Below, piece after piece: positions 7,351-54,530 of a stretch of 64,000 bases of DNA; position 1 is the first letter of the stretch, and each line of letters starts with the position of its first letter. The notes beneath the pieces were generated by a model. It made no database searches, was not told the origin of the DNA, and worked only from the letters and a program-made list of their open reading frames with translations. Both the position numbers and the translations under genes were made by a program. Origin of the DNA: Siphonodentalium dalli (Eukaryota > Mollusca > Scaphopoda > Gadilida > Siphonodentaliidae); NCBI GenBank assembly GCA_032622095.1, contig CP136065.1:248557474-248621473 (forward strand), written 5' to 3'.

Positions 7351-8380
7351 ATTGGGAAAGCATGGGAAAGCATGGGAAAGCATGGGAAAGCACGGGAAAG
7401 CACGGGAAAGCATGGGAAAGCACGGGAAAGCACGGGAAAGCATGGGAAAGCATGGGAAAGCATGGGGAATTATGGGAAAGCATGGGAAAGCATGGGAAAG
7501 CATTGGAAAGCATGGGAAAGCATGGGAAAGCATGGGAAAGCATGGGAAAGCATGGGAAAGCACGGGAAAGCACGGGAAAGCATGGGAAAGCATGGGAAAG
7601 CATGGGAAAGCATGGGAAAGCATGGGAAAGCACGGGAAAGCATGGGAAAGCATGAGAAAGCACGGGAAAGCACGGGAAAGCACGGGAAAGCATGGGAAAG
7701 CATGGGAAAGCATGGGAAAGCATTGGAAAGCATGGGAAAGCATGGGAAAGCATGGGAAAGCATTGGAAAGCATGGGAAAGCATGGGAAAGCATTGGAAAG
7801 CATGGGAAAGCATTGGAAAGCATGGGAAAGCATGGGAAAGCATGGGAAAGCATGGGAAAGCATTGGAAAGCATGGGAAAACATGGGAAAGCATGGGAAAG
7901 CATGGGAAAGCATGGGAAAGCATGGGAAAGCATTGGAAAGCATGGGAAAGCATTGGAAAGCATGGGAAAGCATGGGAAAGCATGGGAAAGCATGGGAAAG
8001 CATTGGGAATTATGGGAAAGCATTGGAAAGCATGGGGAATTATGGGAAAGCATGGGAAAGCATGGGGAATTATGGGAAAGCATGGGAAAGCATTGGAAAG
8101 CATGGGAAAGCATTGGAAAGCATGGGAAAGCATGGGAAAGCATGGGAAAGCATTGGAAAGCATTGGGAAGCATTGGAAAGCATTGGGAATTATGGGAAAG
8201 CATTGGAAAGCATGGGGAATTATGGGAAAGCATGGGAATGCATTGGAAAGCATTGGGAATTATGGGAAAGCATTGGAAAGCATGGGGAATTATGGGAAAG
8301 CATGGGAAATTATGGGAAAGCCTGGGAAAGCATGGGAAATTATGGGAAAGCATGAGAAATTATGGGAAAGCATGGGAAAG
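7351..8380. repeat. 10-bp minisatellite (CATGGGAAAG)n, 103 units
   Basis: Every unit is exactly ten bases and the phase never slips across the array. Main variants are CACGGGAAAG (only 7391-7690), CATTGGAAAG (7501-8280) and the 20-mer CATGGGGAAT-TATGGGAAAG (one at 7461, then mostly beyond 8000). The decamer has no stop in any frame on either strand, so 270-350-codon open frames (KHGKAWESMG on plus, FPMLSHAFPC on minus) appear in several frames. I regard these as by-products of the repeat. A host protein function is unlikely but cannot be excluded from sequence alone. Confidence 0.97.
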
Positions 8381-18263: not shown

Positions 18264-18548
18264 TACCGCACTGTTTGATAGCATACGCCGTTAGATGGAT
18301 TAAGTCAGCTTTTCGTGTTATTATTTCTACGCGCAACTTGGTGATTGGTGTGGTCAACAAGGATAATAAACTATGTATTCTTTAGTTATACTACCACAAT
18401 GTAAAGCAGGCACGTACATATAGGGACGGCGCATACTATTCATACCATTTAAATCACCAGAAAAATTAAATGATACATTAAATGGCATCACAGAAATAAC
18501 TGAAAGTCAATAACAGCAATGAAAACCTGTGAGTATACTGATGACAAC
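18264..18548. other. no feature recognised
   Basis: AT-rich spacer between the TIR element and the 62-bp satellite. Nothing coding seen. Confidence 0.4.
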
Positions 18549-21500
18549 GGTATTCCATATTATAAAGGATATAGGTGATGGCCTGTGATTTATAATAATT
18601 AATATATTCCGGTATTCCTTATTATAAAGGATATAGGTGATGGCCTGTGATTTATAATAATTAATATATTTCGGTATTCCTTATTATAAAGGATATAGGT
18701 GATGGCCTGTGATTTATAATAATTAATATATTCCGGTATTCCTTATTATAAAGGATATAGGTGATGGCCTGTGATTTATAATAATTAATATATTCCGGTT
18801 TTCCTTATTATAAAGGATATAGGTGATGGCCTGTGATTTATAATAATTAATATATTCCGGTATTCCTTATTATAAAGGATATAGGTGATGGCCTGTGATT
18901 TATAATAATTAATATATTCCGGTATTCCTTATTATAAAGGATATAGGTGATGGCCTGTGATTTATAATAATTAATATATTTCGGTATTCCTTATTATAAA
19001 GGATATAGGTAATGGCCTGTGATTTATAATAATTAATATATTCCGATATTCCTTATTATAAAGGATATAGGTGATGGCCTGTGAGTTATAATAATTAATA
19101 TATTCCGGTATTCCTTATTATAAAGGATATAGGTGATGGCCTATGATTTATAATAATTAATATATTCCGGTATTCCTTATTATAAAGGATATAGGTGATG
19201 GCCTGTGATTTATAATAATTAATATATTTCGGTATTCCTTATTATAAAGGATATAGGTGATGGCCTGTGATTTATAATAATTAATATATTTCGGTATTCC
19301 TTATTATAAAGGATATAGGTGATGGCCTGTGATTTATAATAATTAATATATTTCGGTATTCCTTATTATAAAGGATATAGGTGATGGCCTGTGATTTATA
19401 ATAATTAATATATTCCGATATTCCTTATTATAAAGGATATAGGTGATGGCCTGTGAGTTATAATAATTAATATATTCCGGTATTCCTTATTATAAAGGAT
19501 ATAGGTGATGGCCTATGATTTATAATAATTAATATATTCCGGTATTCCTTATTATAAAGGATATAGGTGATGGCCTGTGATTTATAATAATTAATATATT
19601 CCGGTATTCCTTATTATAAAGGATATAGGTGATGGCCTGTGAGTTATAATAATTAATATATTCCGGTATTCCTTATTATAAAGGATATAGGTGATGGCCT
19701 ATGATTTATAATAATTAATATATTCCGGTATTCCTTATTATAAAGGATATAGGTGATGGCCTGTGATTTATAATAATTAATATATTCCGGTATTCCTTAT
19801 TATAAAGGATATAGGTGATGGCCTGTGATTTATAATATTTAATATATTCCGGTATTCCTTATTATAAAGGATATAGGTGATGGCCTATGATTTATAATAA
19901 TTAATATATTTCGGTATTCCTTATTATAAAGGATATAGGTGATGGCCTGTGATTTATAATAATTAATATATACCGGTATTCCTTATTATAAAGGATATAG
20001 GTGATGGCCTGTGATTTATAATAATTAATATATTCCGGTATTCCTTATTATAAAGGATATAGGTGATGGCCTGTGATTTATAATAATTAATATATACCGG
20101 TATTCCTTATTATAAAGGATATAGGTGATGGCCTGTGATTTATAATAATTAATATATTCCGGTATTCCTTATTATAAAGGATATAGGTGATGGCCTGTGA
20201 TCTATAATAATTAATATATACCGGTATTCCTTATTATAAAGGATATAGGTGATGGCCTGTGATTTATAATAATTAATATATTTCGGTATTCCTTATTATA
20301 AAGGATATAGGTGATGGCCTGTGATTTATAATAATTAATATATTCCGGTATTCCTTATTATAAAGGATATAGGTGATGGCCTGTGATTTATAATAATTAA
20401 TATATTCCGGTATTCCTTATTATAAAGGATATAGGTGATGGCCTATGATTTATAATAATTAATATATTCCGGTATTCCTTATTATAAAGGATATAGGTGA
20501 TGGCCTATGATTTATAATAATTAATATATTCCGGTATTCCTTATTATAAAGGATATAGGTGATGGCCTGTGATTTATAATAATTAATATATACCGGTATT
20601 CCTTATTATAAAGGATATAGGTGATGGCCTGTGATTTATAATAATTAATATATTCCGGTATTCCTTATTATAAAGGATATAGGTGATGGCCTATGATTTA
20701 TAATAATTAATATATTCCGGTATTCCTTATTATAAAGGATATAGGTGATGGCCTGTGATTTATAATAATTAATATATACCGGTATTCCTTATTATAGAGG
20801 ATATAGGTGATGGCCTGTGATTTATAATAATTAATATATTCCGGTATTCCTTATTATAAAGGATATAGGTGATGGCCTATGATTTATAATAATTAATATA
20901 TTCCGGTATTCCTTATTATAAAGGATATAGGTGATGGCCTATGATTTATAATAATTAATATATACCGGTATTCCTTATTATAAAGGATATAGGTGATGGC
21001 CTATGATTTATAATAATTAATATATTCCGGTATTCCTTATTATAAAGGATATAGGTGATGGCCTATGATTTATAATAATTAATATATACCGGTATTCCTT
21101 ATTATAAAGGATATAGGTGATGGCCTATGATTTATAATAATTAATATATTCCGGTATTCCTTATTATAAAGGATATAGGTGATGGCCTATGATTTATAAT
21201 AATTAATATATTCCGGTATTCCTTATTATAAAGGATATAGGTGATGGCCTATGATTTATAATAATTAATATATTCCGGTATTCCTTATTATAAAGGATAT
21301 AGGTGATGGCCTATGATTTATAATAATTAATATATTCCGGTATTCCTTATTATAAAGGATATAGGTGATGGCCTATGATTTATAATAATTAATATATTCC
21401 GGTATTCCTTATTATAAAGGATATAGGTGATGGCCTATGATTTATAATAATTAATATATTCCGGTATTCCTTATTATAAAGGATATAGGTGATGGCCTAT

Positions 21501-24500
21501 GATTTATTATAATTAATATATACCGGTATTCCTTATTATAAAGGATATAGGTGATGGCCAATGATTTATAATAATTAATATATTCCGGTATTCCTTATTA
21601 TAAAGGATATAGGTGATGGCCTGTGATTTATAATAATTAATATATACCGGTATTCCTTATTATAACGGATATAGGTGATGGCCTGTGATTTATAATAATT
21701 AATATATTCCGGTATTCCTTATTATAAAGGATATAGGTGATGGCCTATGATTTATAATAATTAATATATACCGGTATTCCTTATTATAAAGGATATAGGT
21801 GATGGCCTGTGATTTATAATAATTAATATATACCGGTATTCCTTATTATAAAGGATATAGGTGATGGCCTATGATTTATAATAATTAATATATTCCGGTA
21901 TTCCTTATTATAAAGGATATAGGTGATGGCCTATAATTTATAATAATTAATATATTCCGGTATTCCTTATTATAAAGGATATAGGTGATGGCCTATGATT
22001 TATAATAATTAATATATTCCGGTATTCCTTATTATAAAGGATATAGGTGATGGCCTGTGATTTATAATAATTAATATATTCCGGTATTCCTTATTATAAA
22101 GGATATAGGTGATGGCCTATGATTTATAATAATTAATATATTCCGGTATTCCTTATTATAAAGGATATAGGTGATGGCCTATGATTTATAATAATTAATA
22201 TATTCCGGTATTCCTTATTATAAAGGATATAGGTGATGGCCTGTGATTTATAATAATTAATATATACCGGTATTCCTTATTATAAAGGATATAGGTGATG
22301 GCCTGTGATTTATAATAATTAATATATTTCGGTATTCCTTATTATAAAGGATATAGGTGATGGCCTATGATTTATAATAATTAATATATTCCGGTATTCC
22401 TTATTATAAAGGATATAGGTGATGGCCTATGATTTATAATAATTAATATATTCCGGTATTCCTTATTATAAAGGATATAGGTGATGGCCTGTGAGTTATA
22501 ATAATTAATATATTCCGGTATTCCTTATTATAAAGGATATAGGTGATGGCCTATGTTTTATAATAATTAATATATTCCGGTATTCCTTATTATAAAGGAT
22601 ATAGGTGATGGCCTATGATTTATAATAATTAATATATTCCGATATTCCTTATTATAACGGATATAGGTGATGGCCTGTGATTTATAATAATTAATATATT
22701 CCGGTATTCCTTATTATAATGGATATAGGTGATGGCCTATGGTTTATAATAATTAATATATTCCGGTATTCCTTATTATAAAGGATATAGGTGATGGCCT
22801 ATGATTTATAATAATTAATATATTCCGGTATTCCTTATTATAAAGCATATAGGTGATGGCCTATGGTTTATAATAATTAATATATTTCGGTATTCCTTAT
22901 TATAAAGGATATAGGTGATGGCCTGTGATTTATAATAATTAATATATTCCGGTATTCCTTATTATAAAGGATATAGGTGATGGCCTATGATTTATAATAA
23001 TTAATATATTCCGGTATTCCTTATTATAAAGGATATAGGTGATGGCCTATGATTTATAATAATTAACATATTCCGGTATTCCTTATTATAAAGGATATTG
23101 GTGATGGCCTATGATTTATAATAATTAATAAATTCCGGTATTCCTTATTATAAAGGATATAGGTGATGGCCTATGATTTATAATAATTAACATATTTCGG
23201 TATTCCTTATTATAAAGGATAAAGGTGATGGCCTATGATTTATAATAATTAATATATTCCGGTATTCCTTATTATAAAGGATATAGGTGATGGCCTATGA
23301 TTTATAATAATTAACATATTCCGGTATTCCTTATTATAAAGGATATAGGTGATGGCCTATGATTTATAATAATTAATATATTCCGGTATTCCTTATTATA
23401 AAGGATATAGGTGATGGCCTATGATTTATAATAATTAATATATTCCGGTATTCCTTATTATAAAGGATATAGGTGATGGCCTATGATTTATAATAATTAA
23501 TATATACCGGTATTCCTTATTATAAAGGATATAGGTGATGGCGTGTGATTTATAATAATTAATATATAACGGTATTCCTTATTATAAAGGATATAGGTGA
23601 TGGCGTGTGATTTATAATAATTAATATATACCGGTATTCCTTATTATAAAGGATATAGGTGATGGCGTGTGATTTATAATAATTAATATATTCCGGTATT
23701 CCTTATTATAAAGGATATAGGTGATGGCCTATGATTTATAATAATTAATATATACCGGTATTCCTTATTATAAAGGATATAGGTGATGGCGTGTGATTTA
23801 TAATAATTAATATATACCGGTATTCCTTATTATAAAGGATATAGCTGATGTCGTGTGATTTATAATAATTAATATATAACGGTATTCCTTATTATAAGGG
23901 ATATAGGTGATGGCCTGTGATTTATAATAATTAATATATTCCGGTATTCCTTATTATAAAGGATATAGGTGATGGCCTATGATTTATAATAATTAATATA
24001 TTCCGGTATTCCTTATTATAAAGGATATAGGTGATGGCCTATGATTTATAATAATTAATATATACCGGTATTCCTTATTATAAAGGATATAGGTGATGGC
24101 CTATGATTTATAATAATTAATATATACCGGTATTACATATTATAAAGGATATAGGTGATGGCCTGTGATTTATAATAAATAATATATTCCGGTATTCCTT
24201 ATTATAAAGGATATAGGTGATGGCCTATGATTTATAATAATTAATATATTCCGGTATTCCTTATTATAAAGGATATAGGTGATGGCCTATGGTTTATAAT
24301 AATTAATATATACCGGTATTCCTTATTATAAAGGATATAGGTGATGGCCTATGATTTATAATAATTAATATATACCGGTATTCCTTATTATAAAGGATAT
24401 AGGTGATGGCCTATGATTTATAATAATTAATATATACCGGTATTCCTTATTATAAAGGATATAGGTGATGGCCTATGATTTATAATAATTAATATATTCC

Positions 24501-27098
24501 GGTATTCCTTATTATAAAGGATATAGGTGATGGCCTATGATTTATAATAATTAATATATACCGGTATTCCTTATTATAAGGGATATAGGTGATGGCCTGT
24601 GATTAATAATAATTAATATATTCCGGTATTCCTTATTATAAGGGATATAGGTGATGGTCTGTGATTTATAATAATTAATATATTCCGGTATTCCTTATTA
24701 TAAAGGATATAGGTGATGGCCTGTGATTTATAATAATTAATATATACCGGTATTCCTTATTATAAGGGATATAGGTGATGGCCTGTGATTTATAATAATT
24801 AATATATTCCGGTATTCCTTATTATAAAGGATATAGGTGATGGCCTGTGATTTATAATAATTAATATATTCCGGTATTCCTTATTATAAAGGATATAGGT
24901 GATGGCCTGTGATTTATAATAATTAATATATTCCGGTATTCCTTATTATAAAGGATATAGGTGATGGCCTATGATTTATAATAATTAATATATACCGGTA
25001 TTCCTTATTATAAGGGATATAGGTGATGGCCTGTGATTTATAATAATTAATATATTCCGGTATTCCTTATTATAAGGGATATAGGTGATGGTCTGTGATT
25101 TATAATAATTAATATATTCCGGTATTCCTTATTATAAAGGATATAGGTGATGGCCTATGATTTATAATAATTAATATATTCCGGTATTCCTTATTATAAA
25201 GGATATAGGTGATGGCCTGTGATTTATAATAATTAATATATACCGGTATTCCTTATTATAAGGGATATAGGTGATGGCCTGTGATTTATAATAATTAATA
25301 TATTCCGGTATTCCTTATTATAAAGGATATAGGTGATGGCCTATGATTTATAATAATTAATATATTCCGGTATTCCTTAATATAGAGGATATAGGTGATG
25401 GCCTATGATTTATAATAATTAATATATTCCGGTATTCCTTATTATAAAGGATATAGGTGATGGCCTATGATTTATAATAATTAATATATTCCGGTATTCC
25501 TTAATATAGAGGATATAGGTGATGGCCTATGATTTATAATAATTAATATATTCCGGTATTCCTTATTATAAAGGATATAGGTGATGGCCTATGATTTATA
25601 ATAATTAATATATTCCGGTATTCCTTATGATAAAGGATATAGGTGATGGCCTGTGATTTATAATAATTAATATATTCCGGTATTCCTTATTATAAAGGAT
25701 ATAGGTGATGGCCTGTGATTTATAATAATTAATATATTCCGGTATTCCTTATTATAAAGGATATAGGTGATGGCCTATGATTTATAATAATTAATATATT
25801 CCGGTATTCCTTATTATAAAGGATATAGGTGATGGCCTGTGATTTATAATAATTAATATATTCCGGTATTCCTTATTATAAGGGATATAGGTGATGGCCT
25901 GTGATTTATAATAATTAATATATTCCGGTATTCCTTATTATAAACGATATAGGTGATGGCCTATGATTTATAATAATTAATATATTCCGGTATTCCTTAT
26001 TATAAAGGATATAGGTGATGGCCTATGATTTATAATAATTAATATATTCCGGTATTCCTTATTGTAAAGGATATAGGTGATGGCCTGTGATTTATAATAA
26101 TTAATATATTCCGGTATTCCTTATTATAAGGGGTAGGGGTGGTAGTCTCTGATTTATAATAATTAATATATTCCGGTATTCCTTATTATAAAGGATATAG
26201 GTGATGGCCTGTGATTTATAATAATTAATATATTCCGGTATTCCTTATTATAAAGGATATAGGTGATGGCCTATGATTTATAATAATTAATATATTCCAG
26301 TATGCCTTATTATAAAGGATATAGGTGATGGCCTGTGATTTATAATAATTAATATATTCCGGTATTCCTTATTATAAAGGATATAGGTGATGGCCTGTGA
26401 TTTATAATAATTAATATATTCCGGTATTCCTTATTATAAAGGATATAGGTGATGGCCTGTGATTTATAATAATTAATATATTCCGGTATTCCTTATTATA
26501 AAGGATATAGGTGATGGCCTATGATTTATAATAATTAATATATTCCGGTATTCCTTATTATAAAGGATATAGGTGATGGCCTATGATTTGTAATAATTAA
26601 TATATTCCGGTATTCCTTATTATAAAGGATATAGGTGATGGCGTATGATTTATAATAATTAATATATTCCGGTATTCCTTATTATAAAGGATATAGGTGA
26701 TGGCCTATGATTTATAATAATTAATATATTCCGGTATTCCTTATTATAAAGGATATAGGTGATGGCCTGTGATTTATAATAATTAATATATTCCGGTATT
26801 CCTTATTATAAAGGATATAGGTGATGGCCTGTGATTTATAATAATTAATATATTCCGGTATTCCTTATTATAAGGGATATAGGTGATGGCCTGTGATTTA
26901 TAATAATTAATATATTCCGGTATTCCTTATTATAAAGGATATAGGTGATGGCCTGTGATTTATAATAATTAATATATTCCGGTATTCCTTATTATAAAGG
27001 ATATAGGTGATGGCCTGTGATTTATAATAATTAATATATTCCGGTATTCCTTATTATAAAGGATATAGGTGATGGCCTGTGATTTATAATAATTAATA
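18549..27098. repeat. 62-bp AT-rich satellite, about 138 units
   Basis: The unit runs GGTATTCCTTATTATAAAGG, then ATATAGGTGATGGCCTGTGA, then TTTATAATAATTAATATATT and CC. The same word (GGATATAGGT) at 18629 and 27061 is exactly 136 x 62 bp apart, so the array has no net indel over 8.4 kb. Each unit holds the inverted pair TTATTATAA / TTATAATAA, so it can form a hairpin. Common variants are GCCTGTG/GCCTATG, TATTCC/TATACC/TATTTC and a GCGTGTG cluster (23541-23860). Open frames are short because the unit contains stops. No coding role. Could be a centromeric, heterochromatic or simply expanded intronic satellite. Confidence 0.98.
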
Positions 27099-29847: not shown

Positions 29848-30034
29848 TTAGAAGAATATTTTCGGCGATTACGTTTGAAGGAATTCTTCCACGACAAAGA
29901 AGTGCCTGATGATCCGACATCTCATATGTCCTCTAAGAGTTGTGTACCTTTTTATGTAAAGCGCATTGAAACTAATTGATGTCCATTGCGTTTTTTTAAA
30001 TGTATATATAATAATATAACAATAATAATAATAA
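29848..30034. other. possible SINE-like tail
   Basis: TATGTAAAGCGCATTGAAAC followed by ATTGCG and then a TATAATAATA-type run (30001-30038) resembles the tail of SINE/LINE retroposons (AAGCGC... then ATT/ATA repeats). No A/B box or head was identified. Confidence 0.3.
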
Positions 30035-30372
30035 TACAAGACGTAATCAAAATAATTCACGGATATTGGATTTGGCAGCGCGTGGCACACATGATTGTGT
30101 TAAAAATTATGTTGATACGGGGCGTAAACTCAAACCACTCACTGACTAGTGACTATATAATGACTTAAACAATTATTTGATACATTTGCTTGAAAACTGT
30201 CCAAAAATTACTCGATAACGATAATTGGTAATTTCGTATTCCGGCTAATCTGCCATCCGTAACATTACTTCGTACTCAACAGACTTTCAAATATTGGAAA
30301 TCTGGTTACCTTATTCTACGACTCAGAGATTATAGAAACCAACAACAACATTTGTGTACAGTATCCCTTTAA
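30035..30372. mobile_element. MITE family C, truncated copy
   Basis: Inverted relative to 5598-6098. Matching runs include GTAATCAAAATAATTCACGG (30041), TAACATTACTTCGTACTCAA, GATTATAGAAACCAACA and the terminal ACAGTATCCCTTTAA (ends 30372). A 35-40 bp insertion sits near 30090. Its outer end lies six bases from the first unit of the splice-donor array. Confidence 0.8.
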
Positions 30373-30378
30373 GTCGCT

Positions 30379-33300
30379 CACGCGTGAGTTCTACATACCT
30401 GTCTGACATCTTGTCCCGATGTATTCGGTCCCGGCACGCGTGAGTTCTACATACCTGTCTGACATCTTGTCCCGATGTATTCGGTCCCGGCACGCGTGAG
30501 TTCTACATACCTGTCTGACATCTTGTCCCGATGTATTCGGTCCCGGCACGCGTGAGTTCTACATACCTGTCTGACATCTTGTCCCGATGTATTCGGTCCC
30601 GGCACGCGTGAGTTCTACATACCTGTCTGACATCTTGGCCCGATGTATTCGGTCCCGGCACGCGTGAGTTCTACATACCTGTCTGACATCTTGTCCCGAT
30701 ATATTCGGTCCCGGCACGCGTGAGTTCTACATACCTGTCTGACATCTTGTCCCGATGTATTCGGTCCCGGCACGCGTGAGTTCTATACATACCTGTCTGA
30801 CATCTTGTCCCGATGTATTCGGTCCCGGCACGCGTGAGTTCTATACATACCTGTCTGACATCTTGTCCCGATGTATTCGGTCCCGGCACGCGTGAGTTCT
30901 ACATACCTGTCTGACATCTTGTCCCGATGTATTCGGTCCCGGCACGCGTGAGTTCTACATACCTGTCTGACATCTTGTCCCGATATATTCGGTCCCGGCA
31001 CGCGTGAGTTCTATACATACCTGTCTGACATCTTGTCCCGATATATTCGGTCCCGGCACGCGTGAGTTCTACATACCTGTCTGACATCTTGTCCCGATGT
31101 ATTCGGTCCCGGCACGCGTGAGTTCTACATACCTGTCTGACATCTTGTCCCGATGTATTCGGTCCCGGCACGCGTGAGTTCTATACATACCTGTCTGACA
31201 TCTTGTCCCGATGTATTCGGTCCCGGCACGCGTGAGTTCTATACATACCTGTCTGACATCTTGTCCCGATGTATTCGGTCCCGGCACGCGTGAGTTCTAT
31301 ACATACCTGTCTGACATCTTGTCCCGATGTATTCGGTCCCGGCACGCGTGAGTTCTACATACCTGTCTGACATCTTGTCCCGATGTATTCGGTCCCGGCA
31401 CGCGTGAGTTCTATACATACCTGTCTGACATCTTGTCCTGATATATTCGGTCCCGGCACGCGTGAGTTCTATACATACCTGTCTGACATCTTGTCCCGAT
31501 GTATTCGGTCCCGGCACGCGTGAGTTCTACATACCTGTCTGACATCTTGTCCCGATGTATTCGGTCCCGGCACGCGTGAGTTCTACATACCTGTCTGACA
31601 TCTTGTCCCGATATATTCGGTCCCGGCACGCGTGAGTTCTATACATACCTGTCTGACATCTTGTCCCGATATATTCGGTCCCGGCACGCGTGAGTTCTAT
31701 ACATACCTGTCTGACATCTTGTCCCGATATATTCGGTCCCGGCACGCGTGAGTTCTATACATACCTGTCTGACATCTTGTCCCGATGTATTCGGTCCCGG
31801 CACGCGTGAGTTCTACATACCTGTCTGACATCTTGTCCCGATATATTCGGTCCCGGCACGCGTGAGTTCTATACATACCTGTCTGACATCTTGTCCCGAT
31901 ATATTCGGTCCCGGCATGCGTGAGTTCTATACATACCTGTCTGACATCTTGTCCCGATGTATTCGGTCCCGGCACGCGTGAGTTCTACATACCTGTCTGA
32001 CATCTTGTCCCGATGTATTCGGTCCCGGCACGCGTGAGTTCTACATACCTGTCTGACATCTTGTCCCGATGTATTCGGTCCCGGCACGCGTGAGTTCTAC
32101 ATACCTGTCTGACATCTTGTCCCGATGTATTCGGTCCCGGCACGCGTGAGTTCTATACATACCTGTCTGACATCTTGTCCCGATGTATTCGGTCCCGGCA
32201 CGCGTGAGTTCTATACATACCTGTCTGACATCTTGTCCCGATGTATTCGGTCCCGGCACGCGTGAGTTCTACATACCTGTCTGACATCTTGTCCCGATGT
32301 ATTCGGTCCCGGCACGCGTGAGTTCTATACATACCTGTCTGACATCTTGTCCCGATGTATTCGGTCCCGGCACGCGTGAGTTCTATACATACCTGTCTGA
32401 CATCTTGTCCTGATGTATTCGGTCCCGGCACGCGTGAGTTCTATACATACCTGTCTGACATCTTGTCCCGATGTATTCGGTCCCGGCACGCGTGAGTTCT
32501 ATACATACCTGTCTGACATCTTGTCCCGATGTATTCGGTCCCGGCACGCGTGAGTTCTACATACCTGTCTGACATCTTGTCCCGATGTATTCGGTCCCGG
32601 CGCGCGTGAGTTCTACATACCTGTCTGACATCTTGTCCCGATATATTCGGTCCCGGCACGCGTGAGTTCTACATACCTGTCTGACATCTTGTCCCGATGT
32701 ATTCGGTCCCGGCACGCGTGAGTTCTACATACCTGTCTGACATCTTGTCCCGATGTATTCGGTCCCGGCATGCGTGAGTTCTACATACCTGTCTGACATC
32801 TTGTCCCGATGTATTCGGTCCCGGCACGCGTGAGTTCTATACATACCTGTCTGACATCTTGTCCCGATGTATTCGGTCCCGGCACGCGTGAGTTCTATAC
32901 ATACCTGTCTGACATCTTGTCCCGATGTATTCGGTCCCGGCACGCGTGAGTTCTATACATACCTGTCTGACATCTTGTCCCGATGTATTCGGTCCCGGCA
33001 CGCGTGAGTTCTATACATACCTGTCTGACATCTTGTCCCGATGTATTCGGTCCCGGCACGCGTGAGTTCTATACATACCTGTCTGACATCTTGTCCCGAT
33101 GTATTCGGTCCCGGCACGCGTGAGTTCTACATACCTGTCTGACATCTTGTCCCGATGTATTCGGTCCCGGCGCGCGTGAGTTCTACATACCTGTCTGACA
33201 TCTTGTCCCGATATATTCGGTCCCGGCACGCGTGAGTTCTACATACCTGTCTGACATCTTGTCCCGATGTATTCGGTCCCGGCACGCGTGAGTTCTACAT

Positions 33301-35904
33301 ACCTGTCTGACATCTTGTCCCGATGTATTCGGTCCCGGCATGCGTGAGTTCTACATACCTGTCTGACATCTTGTCCCGATGTATTCGGTCCCGGCACGCG
33401 TGAGTTCTACATACCTGTCTGACATCTTGTCCCGATATATTCGGTCCCGGCACGCGTGAGTTCTACATACCTGTCTGACATCTTGTCCCGATGTATTCGG
33501 TCCCGGCACGCGTGAGTTCTACATACCTGTCTGACATCTTGTCCCGATGTATTCGGTCCCGGCACGCGTGAGTTCTACATACCTGTCTGACATCTTGTCC
33601 CGATGTATTCGGTCCCGGCACGCGTGAGTTCTACATACCTGTCTGACATCTTGTCCCGATGTATTCGGTCCCGGCACGCGTGAGTTCTACATACCTGTCT
33701 GACATCTTGTCCCGATGTATTCGGTCCCGGCACGCGTGAGTTCTATACATACCTGTCTGACATCTTGTCCCGATATATTCGGTCCCGGCACGCGTGAGTT
33801 CTATACATACCTGTCTGACATCTTGTCCCGATGTATTCGGTCCCGGCACGCGTGAGTTCTACATACCTGTCTGACATCTTGTCCCGATATATTCGGTCCC
33901 GGCACGCGTGAGTTCTACATACCTGTCTGACATCTTGTCCCGATATATTCGGTCCCGGCACGCGTGAGTTCTACATACCTGTCTGACATCTTGTCCCGAT
34001 GTATTCGGTCCCGGCACGCGTGAGTTCTATACATACCTGTCTGACATCTTGTCCCGATGTATTCGGTCCCGGCACGCGTGAGTTCTATACATACCTGTCT
34101 GACATCTTGTCCCGATGTATTCGGTCCCGGCGCGCGTGAGTTCTACATACCTGTCTGACATCTTGTCCCGATGTATTCGGTCCCGGCACGCGTGAGTTCT
34201 ACATACCTGTCTGACATCTTGTCCCGATGTATTCGGTCCCGGCACGCGTGAGTTCTACATACCTGTCTGACATCTTGTCCCGATATATTCGGTCCCGGCA
34301 CGCGTGAGTTCTACATACCTGTCTGACATCTTGTCCCGATGTATTCGGTCCCGGCACGCGTGAGTTCTACATACCTGTCTGACATCTTGTCCCGATGTAT
34401 TCGGTCCCGGCACGCGTGAGTTCTACATACCTGTCTGACATCTTGTCCCGATGTATTCGGTCCCGGCACGCGTGAGTTCTACATACCTGTCTGACATCTT
34501 GTCCCGATGTATTCGGTCCCGGCACGCGTGAGTTCTATACATACCTGTCTGACATCTTGTCCCGATGTATTCGGTCCCGGCACGCGTGAGTTCTACATAC
34601 CTGTCTGACATCTTGTCCCGATGTATTCGGTCCCGGCACGCGTGAGTTCTACATACCTGTCTGACATCTTGTCCCGATATATTCGGTCCCGGCACGCGTG
34701 AGTCCTATACATACCTGTCTGACATCTTGTCCCGATGTATTCGGTCCCGGCACGCGTGAGTTCTACATACCTGTCTGACATCTTGTCCCGATGTATTCGG
34801 TCCCGGCACGCGTGAGTCCTATACATACCTGTCTGACATCTTGTCCCGATGTATTCGGTCCCGGCACGCGTGAGTTCTACATACCTGTCTGACATCTTGT
34901 CCCGATGTATTCGGTCCCGGCACGCGTGAGTCCTATACATACCTGTCTGACATCTTGTCTCGATGTATTCGGTCCCGGCACGCGTGAGTTCTACATACCT
35001 GTCTGACATCTTGTCCCGATGTATTCGGTCCCGGCACGCGTGAGTTCTACATATACCTGTCTGACATCTTGTCCCGATATATTCGGTCCCGGCACGCGTG
35101 AGTTCTATACATACCTGTCTGACATCTTGTCCCGATATATTCGGTCCCGGCACGCGTGAGTTCTACATACCTGTCTGACATCTTGTCCCGATATATTCGG
35201 TCCCGGCAAGCGTGAGTTCTACATACCTGTCTGACATCTTGTCCCGATGTATTCGGTCCCGGCACGCGTGAGTTCTACATACCTGTCTGACATCTTGTCC
35301 CGATGTATTCGGTCCCGGCACGCGTGAGTTCTACATACCTATCTGACATCTTGTCCCGATATATTCGGTCCCGGCACGCGTGAGTTCTATACATACCTGT
35401 CTGACATCTTGTCCCGATGTATTCGGTCCCGGCACGCGTGAGTTCTACATACCTGTCTGACATCTTGTCCCGATATGTTCGGTCCCGGCACGCGTGAGTT
35501 CTATACATACCTGTCTGACATCTTGTCCCGATGTATTCGGTCCCGGCACGCGTGAGTTCTACATACCTGTCTGACATCTTGTCCCGATGTATTCGGTCCC
35601 GGCACGCGTGAGTTCTACATACCTGTCTGACATCTTGTCCCGATGTATTCGGTCCCGGCACGCGTGAGTTCTACATACCTGTCTGACATCTTGTCCCGAT
35701 GTATTCGGTCCCGGCGCGCGTGAGTTCTACATACCTGTCTGACATCTTGTCCCGATGTATTCGGTCCCGGCACGCGTGAGTTCTATACATACCTGTCTGA
35801 CATCTTGTCCCGATATATTCGGTCCCGGCACGCGTGAGTTCTATATACCTGTCTGACATCTTGTCCCGATATATTCGGTCCCGGCACGCGTGAGTTCTAC
35901 ATAC
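30379..35904 (-). repeat. splice-donor minisatellite: exon end plus intron start, about 97 units
   Basis: Tandem units of 56 or 58 bp. On the minus strand each reads CCGGGACCGAATACATCGGG, ACAAGATGTCAGACAG, then GTATGTAGAACTCACGCGTG. The first 36 bases equal the last 36 bases of the EGF exon at 35905-36021 and the rest is the start of its intron. Each unit therefore carries a complete CAG|GTATGT donor. The 58-bp form has an extra TA (GTATGTATAGAAC). I saw no unit without the donor GT; two have GTATAT (near 35050 and 35845). Reading past the first donor meets TAG at 35897-35899. Open frames of 72-186 codons across it (THACRDRIHRDKMSDRY and similar) are repeat by-products. Confidence 0.95.
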
Positions 35905-36021
35905 CTGTCTGACATCTTGTCCCGATGTATTCGGTCCCGGCGCAGTTACACGAGAAGCTGTCGACGTTGTTGGTGCAAATTCCTCCATGCAGACATGGAT
36001 TGGATGAACATTCGTTGATAT
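35905..36021 (-). CDS. calcium-binding EGF-like domain exon
   Basis: A 117-bp exon between a TTCATTTCTAG acceptor (ending 36022) and a CAG|GTATGT donor (35904/35905), phase 1 at both ends as is usual for EGF exons. It encodes DINECSSNPCLHGGICTNN followed by VDSFSCNCAGTEYIGTRCQT. Six cysteines have EGF spacing (pairs 1-3, 2-4 and 5-6 expected). DINEC is the calcium-binding start, and C-x-N-x4-F-x-C-x-C matches the Asp/Asn hydroxylation consensus. Such domains occur in extracellular matrix proteins and receptors (fibrillin-, fibropellin- or Notch-type); the protein cannot be named from one domain. The neighbouring exon of the same class is at 54417-54530 upstream. Its donor is the founder of the adjacent array. 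The next exon downstream was not found in the window. Confidence 0.9.
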
Positions 36022-36466
36022 CTAGAAATGAATAAATTACCTATTAAAACATAATGTGTACCTATCTCAGTGAATCAAGCTGATATATGAGCACCAAGCC
36101 ACTGTACTTTAAGTTTACAATCGTCATGTATTGCCTTATTTAGGAGCCATAATTATATATACCATAATCCAAAGAAAAATGTCTTCCACTCAGCCGAAAT
36201 CCAACTCGGACTATCTAGTCTTCGTAGTTCATAAGCTGTATCGGATGACATGTGTCACTTTAATTCGTCGTGTAAAAAAAAAACATTGGACTGCAGCCGA
36301 TACTCAATTCTCCCGATCAAGAGAATAAAAATCAACTTTTAATGGTTCACCATGGACTTACTCGAGTTTCTTAATTTCTTGACTCCCATCAACAATTTGA
36401 TTGTTCGATGGAGTTATGTAACACTTTGGATATGGATGCTTCTAGAATAATAACATTATACATGGC
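36022..36466 (-). other. intron sequence, nothing further seen
   Basis: Presumed intron upstream of the EGF exon. AT-rich, with no coding block. A polypyrimidine/branch region near the acceptor is short (TAATTTATTCATTTCTAG). Confidence 0.5.
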
Positions 36467-52525: not shown

Positions 52526-54416
52526 CACGATATGTTTGATAACCCACTGGACAACTATAGTATGGGCTATGTATTGCAGCTATCACACCGAGTGTTGTGA
52601 TGCTTCGCTGATGTATTTTGGGACAAAACCAGCATTTTGATAGATGTTTTCAACATTTTTGAGCTGTTTGTAAGGTTAAAATGATATAATTCCACCAAAC
52701 TCAATCAGTGATACGTTTTCAATTGATAAGTATCCTTCCTTTATTGGAGAATATATTACCATAGGATAGTTCCAAACTCTGTAGGCTCTACCATTTGCAA
52801 AAACATGGATTACAAAAACATGGATTACAAAATCTCCACAAAAAATCTGAAGACACAATGAACCGATCTAAGATTCTTAATCGGCTGATGCTGGAGATAT
52901 CATATTCCAAGTTCCATCTGATTCGGAGACAAAAACAAATTTCGTGCCACGGACCGCCCTCTCCCCAGACCTGCAATACTGAACCGAACCTGTCCAATTT
53001 TGGCACACTACTTACACTCTTTATTCCGGACATATCGACGTATGCCACGACCTCTCATGTTGGACCGTTTCGGAGTTGTGATCGCAAGCAGTTTGTCCGT
53101 AATAACTTTGAAGTCACGTAACTCGGGCATTTTCCAATGGATTTTCGAAATTATTTAAGTTTCTTAATCTGCTGCTGCTGTAGATGTTACATTGGCACAT
53201 TTGTGCACTGTCTTGCGCTCTTTCTTCCGGTCACATCGGAGTGTGATACGACCTTCAATGTTTGATAATTTCAGAGGAGTTGCGGTCGCAATTTGATCAG
53301 CCCAAAACGCGAATTTCAAGGACCCACAACTCTAGTGCTTCTAATCCGATTTCAAAAATCTTGTATGTTGTATGATTAACTTCGTTCACGGAATCCATAC
53401 ACCCGAATAGAACAACTTTTCGTAAAGGATTTTTTTTTTAATTTCGCCCCCACCCAATGTTGAAATATAAGACTGACGCTGTCAATATTTCGTTCTGGGA
53501 CTGAATCGACAATGACCAACACGACTGTGAACAGCACATTCAGTTATCTCTAAAGATAAGGGAGAACAGCTGAGTACAATCAATTTGAGGTGTGCCTATT
53601 TATGGGAGGTAACTCCGCATGGAAAACGCGGACACAAATTTGATGCCCGTGGCCAGTAGGGCATATCGAGTTGCGCATACGGTCCAATTTTTGTTGCTCT
53701 GATCCTTATAATTTCCGAGAGAATAACATTACTTTTTTTCTCAGAAAAATGGAGATAATTACGCGGGGAAAACGCGGACAATATTCCTCATATGCTGGCT
53801 ATTAGTTAGAACTCATTAGCCCCAATATACGTACAAACTTTGAAACATTAGGCCGAAATCGGGATACCTTCATTTTCAGTAGCCCTTAGATGCCTACATT
53901 TCCTAGAGATTTCGCGTTCTTATTGCCATTAGTTTCTGAGTATTTCCAATTAAACAGAAAACGGCTGCATTAGAAAAACATTTTACTTCCTTGGTTACAC
54001 CATGGAAGCATAATAAAAAGCAAACAGCTTTGAAAGACAGAACGACAAATGAGTCCCGAGCTCCACGAACGAACGAACGAATGAATCAGTTGTATAGAAT
54101 TGTCCACATATAAATTGTTAAGTGTTTGTATTTGCGATATAAACGTTTCGCCACATAATCGCATGGTTATTTTATAATGTTACCAAACCCTACCATACAC
54201 GAGAAAGATGTAACAATGTTCATTCTACATGCATGTTGTCGTATGTCTAGTATTTTTGGTCGACACGTACATATATCATCGCCAAAATGTGTGCATGTCG
54301 GTTTTGTGGCATTTAAACGCATTTCCATGTTGACGATGTATCGATTTCTTTTAGGGGAGGACTCAATCACCAAAAATGTCCTCGGATTCGTATAGGTATT
54401 AAGGTATAGCACCAAC
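52526..54416. other. presumed intron, no exon recognised
   Basis: Presumed intron of the EGF gene. ACAAAAACATGGATT is duplicated at about 52797-52827. GAACGAACGAACGAATGAAT lies near 54066. No cysteine-rich block with splice sites was found. Confidence 0.45.
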
Positions 54417-54530
54417 CTGTTTGACAGTCAGGTCCCGTATAACCAGCCACGCATGCGCAGGTGTACTCATTTCCCGCCCGGGAACATGTACCTCCATTTT
54501 CGCACGGTTGGATCATACACTGATCAATAC
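54417..54530 (-). CDS. EGF-like domain exon
   Basis: A 114-bp exon, acceptor TATATTTTTCAG (ending 54531) and donor ACAG|GTTGGT (54417/54416), phase 1 at both ends. It encodes [16 protein letters not shown] followed by [20 protein letters not shown] and QT, with six cysteines in EGF spacing and the canonical GYTGPDC end. The first Asp of the calcium-binding consensus depends on the previous exon, and the hydroxylation consensus is absent (Arg at that place), so calcium binding is doubtful. Same strand and phase as the exon at 35905-36021, so joining them keeps the frame. They probably belong to one multi-EGF protein that is secreted or on the cell surface. No further exon was recognised between the two or upstream to the window end. 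Protein identity unknown. Confidence 0.88.

Follow-up and report, generated by a model that had tools for sequence, protein, structure and literature searches.

The window analysed here is a stretch of 64,000 nucleotides (nt) from the scaphopod Siphonodentalium dalli (assembly GCA_032622095.1, contig CP136065.1). It was found that an EGF-type exon on the minus strand of the window runs into a tandem array of 98 units, each of which repeats the end of the exon together with the splice donor of its intron. In structure the array falls within the definition of a mirage, a known but little-studied kind of repeat; in the available parts of two papers (PMC3087553, PMC3902484), which are the source of all statements on amphioxus mirages below, mirages are tandem repeats that span exon/intron boundaries. 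We consider it rather likely (probability of roughly 0.7) that the array is such a boundary-spanning minisatellite, expanded in place and near-neutral, with the first donor being the one in use. The array is probably harmless, and is a real, unusually large example of a described kind, apparently outside cephalochordates.

Structure of the array and its exon

The window is a piece of one 2.23 Gb assembly of nine contigs, and the copy number of the array is that of this assembly. Tandem Repeats Finder called the array at 30379-35941 with a period of 56, 98.0 copies and 97% matches. Splitting of the minus strand gave 98 head-to-tail units with the exon's own copy counted, hence 97 extra ones. 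Each unit was composed of the last 36 nt of the EGF exon and the first 20 or 22 nt of its intron. The unit length was 56 base pairs (bp) in 61 units and 58 bp in the other 37, whose intronic part is longer by two bases (TA), and the whole array amounted to 5562 bp. The units fell into 18 sequence types, the commonest of which accounted for 40 of the 98 and included the exon's own unit (unit 1). The junction CAGGTATGT (CAG/GTATGT) was kept in 95 of the 98 units. These results bear out a first-pass annotation of this DNA, which had described about 97 tandem copies (right to within one) of the exon/intron junction itself, with near-identical CAG/GTATGT sites downstream of the real donor of an EGF exon.

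The first unit begins within the exon, at 35940. At the far edge, the matches to a dispersed repeat end at 30372-30375, 3 to 6 bases from the array; for this repeat, 39 other places were found among 40 scored (1507 first-look candidates). An 8-bp palindrome, CACGCGTG, was observed in the intronic part of 90 of the 98 units. The observed/expected ratio of CpG was uninformative, being 1.3 for the array itself, 1.4 and 1.08 for its flanks and 0.94 for the rest of the window.

The exon (36021-35905) reads DINECSSNPCLHGGICTNNVDSFSCNCAGTEYIGTRCQT; it is preceded by TTCATTTCTAG and followed by GTATGT, its end (...CGGGACAAGATGTCAGACAG) leading into the intron start GTATGTAGAACTCACGCGTG, so that a putative acceptor (at 36022) and a putative donor are both present. 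It matched the Pfam EGF model PF00008 with an E value of 9.4e-08 and 32.6 bits (cut-off of 21.5). The coordinates of the array, of this exon and of a second EGF exon upstream are listed in the table. The donor of the upstream exon is unusual (CAG/GTTGGT at 54411-54416), and the same donor was seen in a paralogue (L070).

Features of the window around the junction array
Feature	Positions	Strand	Basis
Junction array, 98 units	30379..35940	-	Tandem Repeats Finder and splitting of the minus strand
EGF-type exon, 117 nt, phase 1 at both ends, open frame	35905..36021	-	Pfam; 39 paralogous exons
Intron start in unit 1, frame-keeping donor GTATGT	35885..35904	-	Reads on GGT ATG TAG, stop
Upstream EGF exon, phase 1	54417..54530	-	Reading frame continues into the exon at 36021
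Dispersed-repeat copy adjoining the far edge of the array	30034..30374	.	Genome matches

Related exons and their junctions

A whole-genome search with the exon, in which 40 of 77 first-look candidates were scored, gave 39 other exon-length places on contigs C5, C7 and C8, with an identity of 82-89%. The four best relatives of the upstream exon were found on C3 (one, 92%) and C5 (three, 86%). Those on C5 precede the EGF clusters at 228.4, 236.8 and 229.5 Mb by ∼7, 7 and 32 kb, respectively. Judged by these relatives and by the paralogues of the exon, the window gene looks like a member of a multi-EGF gene family. The ratio of non-synonymous to synonymous substitution rates (dN/dS) of the exon against its paralogues had a median of 0.31 over 39 pairs, and among the paralogues it was 0.21 over 600 non-independent pairs with at least 4 synonymous changes. 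These values would fit past constraint and are not a proof of present exon use. It was also observed that the region of one paralogous exon, C5:228409938, is rich in minisatellites; a 32-bp array of ∼5 kb (L071:8582-10000 with L072:1-3577) starts ∼2.5 kb upstream of this exon.

The junction was read at all 39 places, over 95-108 bp at 32 of them and over 1,500 bp at the remaining seven. A second donor unit directly downstream was absent at 37 of the 39 exons. At two loci (L003 and L008), donor-like matches were found 595-1221 bp downstream, and the exon end recurred there too, as would be the case for a next exon. The paralogous introns on C5 start, for example, with GTCTGTAAAACATGCGTGACGAC or GTCTGTAGAAAACATACGTGACGAC, both of which align to the intronic part of the unit and extend a few bases past the far edge of the array (AGCGA). 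The resemblance is modest: of the distinct intron starts of the paralogues, 11 in number and representing 16 of the 39 loci, four aligned to the intronic part of the unit above 97% of shuffles. Because the paralogous junctions are mostly single copy, one junction per exon is most likely the ancestral state, and the array would have grown in place.

The two remaining exons of the 39, C8:183883767 (L061) and its near-copy C8:183686746 (L062), bear a different junction array, with a unit of 35 bp comprising 12 exonic and 23 intronic nt. The array has 27 units at the former locus and 7 at the latter, with CAGGT retained in 25 of 27 and 6 of 7 units. This difference between two near-identical loci of a single assembly may reflect length instability. 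A third C8 exon outside the 39 (183873039, L074) has three diverged units, and two units each were suggested by search places alone at C8:183873684 and C8:183665776. Since the unit of the C8 arrays is unlike that of the window in both length and intronic sequence, at least two origins are suggested, while the C8 series may have a single origin spread by exon duplication. A longer run of matches to the 35-bp unit was noted at C8:183868772-183870059, where the search places include no adjoining exon; the run is possibly a junction array that has outlived its exon. Related exons with 1, 3, 7, 27 and 98 junction units form a natural copy-number series for studying how the correct donor is chosen by the spliceosome from a set of near-identical ones.

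Use of the donors and alternative readings

In the proposed mechanism, tandem duplication of a 56-bp stretch straddling the end of the EGF exon and its splice donor would have given birth to the minisatellite, and slippage or unequal exchange would then have expanded it in place to 98 units. Use of any later donor adds GGT ATG TAG to the exon and thereby a stop two codons past donor 1; only donor 1 yields an EGF protein, because the later donors extend the exon into this stop. Transcripts would be expected to use the first donor, which ends the short exon and is the sole donor that keeps the frame. The other 97 donors would leave with the intron, and the array would be close to neutral; transcripts spliced from a later donor would probably be subject to nonsense-mediated decay. 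By exon definition, the acceptor at 36022 should lead to a preference for the short exon. Where several sites are occupied by the U1 small nuclear ribonucleoprotein (U1 snRNP), however, the one nearest to the next acceptor can win, which would be harmful here.

Several results weigh against this reading. Within 264 kb around the window, no EGF exon apart from the two in the table was convincing (E below 1e-5), and no other coding exon of the gene was recognised there. For the latter search the open frames of a paralogous locus (L071-L073, 30 kb) were compared with the 264 kb, queries with more than six matches being omitted from the rows inspected; the two EGF exons were common to both, and the remaining matches were repeat-like by eye. 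In addition, seven of the 11 paralogous intron starts aligned to the intronic part of the unit no better than shuffles at the 3% level. Finally, the pattern searches described below suggest that donors may be favoured in arrays genome-wide, which is unexpected of a purely random birth.

The scarcity of neighbouring exons can also be taken to mean that the exon pair is a decaying fragment left by gene duplication, which is no longer spliced, the array being a satellite beside a dead exon. This possibility, which we regard as somewhat improbable, shares the origin of the array with the mirage interpretation and differs only on exon use. Only one exon of this type is present here, compared with five to seven per C5 cluster, and residues are altered, with GTEYIGTRC in place of the GTG[FY][ST]GTRC of the C5 paralogues. 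Nevertheless, both exons have open frames with six cysteines each and matching phases, and they join in frame. The dN/dS against the paralogues is below 1, though much of this constraint could predate the death of the gene.

It was also considered that the array is functional, with its 97 extra donors binding U1 snRNP along the intron and regulating the gene, either by competition with the authentic donor, which would reduce output and give isoforms with a stop codon, or by protecting the repeat-filled intron against early polyadenylation. Each unit does consist of an exon tail and a donor, and nearly all donors are intact; intact donors are, however, expected anyway in a young, homogenised array. 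The computed U1 pairing of the repeated donor was -9.9 kcal/mol, which is stronger than in most C5 paralogues, whose GTCTGT donors gave -8.5 to -8.8 kcal/mol. Its strength is not special, being lower than that of the GTAGGT (-13.0 kcal/mol) and GTAAGT (-11.4 kcal/mol) donors of the C7 and C8 paralogues and of the consensus (-14.0 kcal/mol). When the TA insertions and a single common polymorphism, which accounts for 24 changes, were excluded, two substitutions were counted across the units in the nine donor positions and 16 in the 46 others. On these counts, donor positions were not clearly better preserved than others, and the extra donors gave no clear indication of being under selection. Moreover, such an array is lacking at 37 of the 39 related exons, and near-identical C8 loci differ between 27 and 7 units. 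For the mirages of amphioxus, splicing is reported to be undisturbed (PMC3087553, PMC3902484), regular splicing being apparently unaffected in the former account. A regulatory function of the array is therefore unlikely. No positive support was obtained for the array as a splicing clock, as a means of titrating U1 or as a protection of the intron; the first-pass annotation had put forward roles of this sort, with slowed splicing among the plausible consequences. Recursive (ratchet) splicing was dropped because, although AG/GT is present, no pyrimidine tract was seen by eye in the preceding CGAATACATCGGGACAAGATGTCAGACAG.

Finally, an assembly artefact, by which the copy number was inflated or the array built from few units, is highly improbable: the units are ∼97% alike with 40 of 98 identical, and the order of unit types is weak evidence (the longest repeated block of 7 units is within reach of shuffles, with a mean of 4.3 and a maximum of 8), but the 18 types follow in irregular order with two lengths intermixed, and other large arrays were assembled nearby.

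Junction arrays in known systems and genome-wide

Mirages have been described in amphioxus Adh3 (Canestro 2002, as cited) and in the globin genes BflGb6 and BflGb9 (PMC3087553), and further in PGBD5, with units of 60 and 108 bp, and troponin C (PMC3902484). Their units span 10-72 bp in Adh3 and 150-160 bp in globin genes, both donor and acceptor boundaries are affected, and length and somatic instability was noted (PMC3087553). Many but not all units keep the AG/GT signals (PMC3087553, PMC3902484). In the sections available, both papers use the term for amphioxus only.

The window array resembles these cases in being a minisatellite-like tandem duplication of an exon/intron boundary; the amphioxus range of 10-160 bp covers both the 56/58-bp unit of the window and the 35-bp unit of C8, and as in amphioxus the splice signal is retained in most units of all three arrays. 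Copy number varies between haplotypes in amphioxus, with 6 and 3 units in the two of BflGb6 (PMC3087553); in the single assembly analysed here it differs between near-identical C8 loci. The arrays of the present study differ in that at least two distinct junction arrays occur within one gene family, in the genome, which at 2.23 Gb in nine contigs does not fit amphioxus, and in size, with 98 units and 5.6 kb in the window compared with the 6 and 3 units of BflGb6. The first-pass annotation had known of no described case of a donor-containing minisatellite of this size; as to kind this does not hold, given the amphioxus mirages, while as to size it stands against the parts of PMC3087553 and PMC3902484 available. 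The window array extends mirages to what is apparently another animal lineage, and at a far larger size than that of BflGb6.

Mirages have been proposed as a route to new introns (PMC3087553). In common with intron gain by tandem AG/GT duplication, a donor-bearing sequence has been duplicated here; in contrast, no new intron was seen and the units are without an evident pyrimidine tract (by eye). The antifreeze glycoprotein gene of notothenioid fishes is said to have arisen from trypsinogen when a short segment at an intron/exon junction was amplified in tandem, the repeats having become coding. The window array differs from this parallel, since reading into it meets a stop at once.

Donor-bearing arrays were searched for genome-wide with four motifs; the match counts weight large arrays, and clusters were defined by place and not by exon overlap. 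Three consecutive CAGGTRAGT motifs at 20-50 bp spacing gave 2157 matches, compared with 870 for the reversed pattern (2.5-fold). The corresponding triplets with a one-base change (CAGGCRAGT) gave 36 matches (reversed, 455), and those of the permuted motifs CAGTGRAGT and CTGGARAGT gave 789 (reversed, 452) and 22 (reversed, 55), respectively. On C1, the contig fully covered for all four motifs, to which the cluster comparison was restricted, 13 clusters of the donor motif were obtained with 5-kb merging, 10 at 50 kb and 9 at 200 kb, whereas the three altered motifs gave 0, 1 and 1 (by eye). In 280 kb, single copies of the donor motif did not outnumber those of the controls (2 versus 11, 2 and 5). 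Taken together, the searches suggest that donor-bearing arrays may be favoured genome-wide.

A family-specific two-donor pattern gave 97 matches (reversed control, 12), of which 57 were in the window array, 31 at 183.6-183.9 Mb of C8 and nine elsewhere on C8. These nine, with a 46-bp spacing, lie at 155.35 and 155.73 Mb (155353098-155353894 and 155732881-155733102) and are possibly further junction arrays, or else chance matches. We tentatively suggest, while thinking it doubtful, that splice donors are preferred birthplaces of minisatellites, so that array formation would recurrently capture exon/intron boundaries across the genome. If so, many genes would carry arrays of decoy donors that are tolerated or exploited by splicing; a genome-wide enrichment would likewise link splice junctions with the birth of tandem repeats and with the supply of new introns.

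Two other arrays were noted in the window. That at 18548-27098 (62-bp units, 137.9 copies, 27% GC) was considered as a further junction array and rejected, because related units were listed on all nine contigs, with 81-93% identity outside the window, which makes it a dispersed satellite. The other, at 7353-8380, is a ∼1 kb array of the 10-bp unit TGGGAAAGCA.

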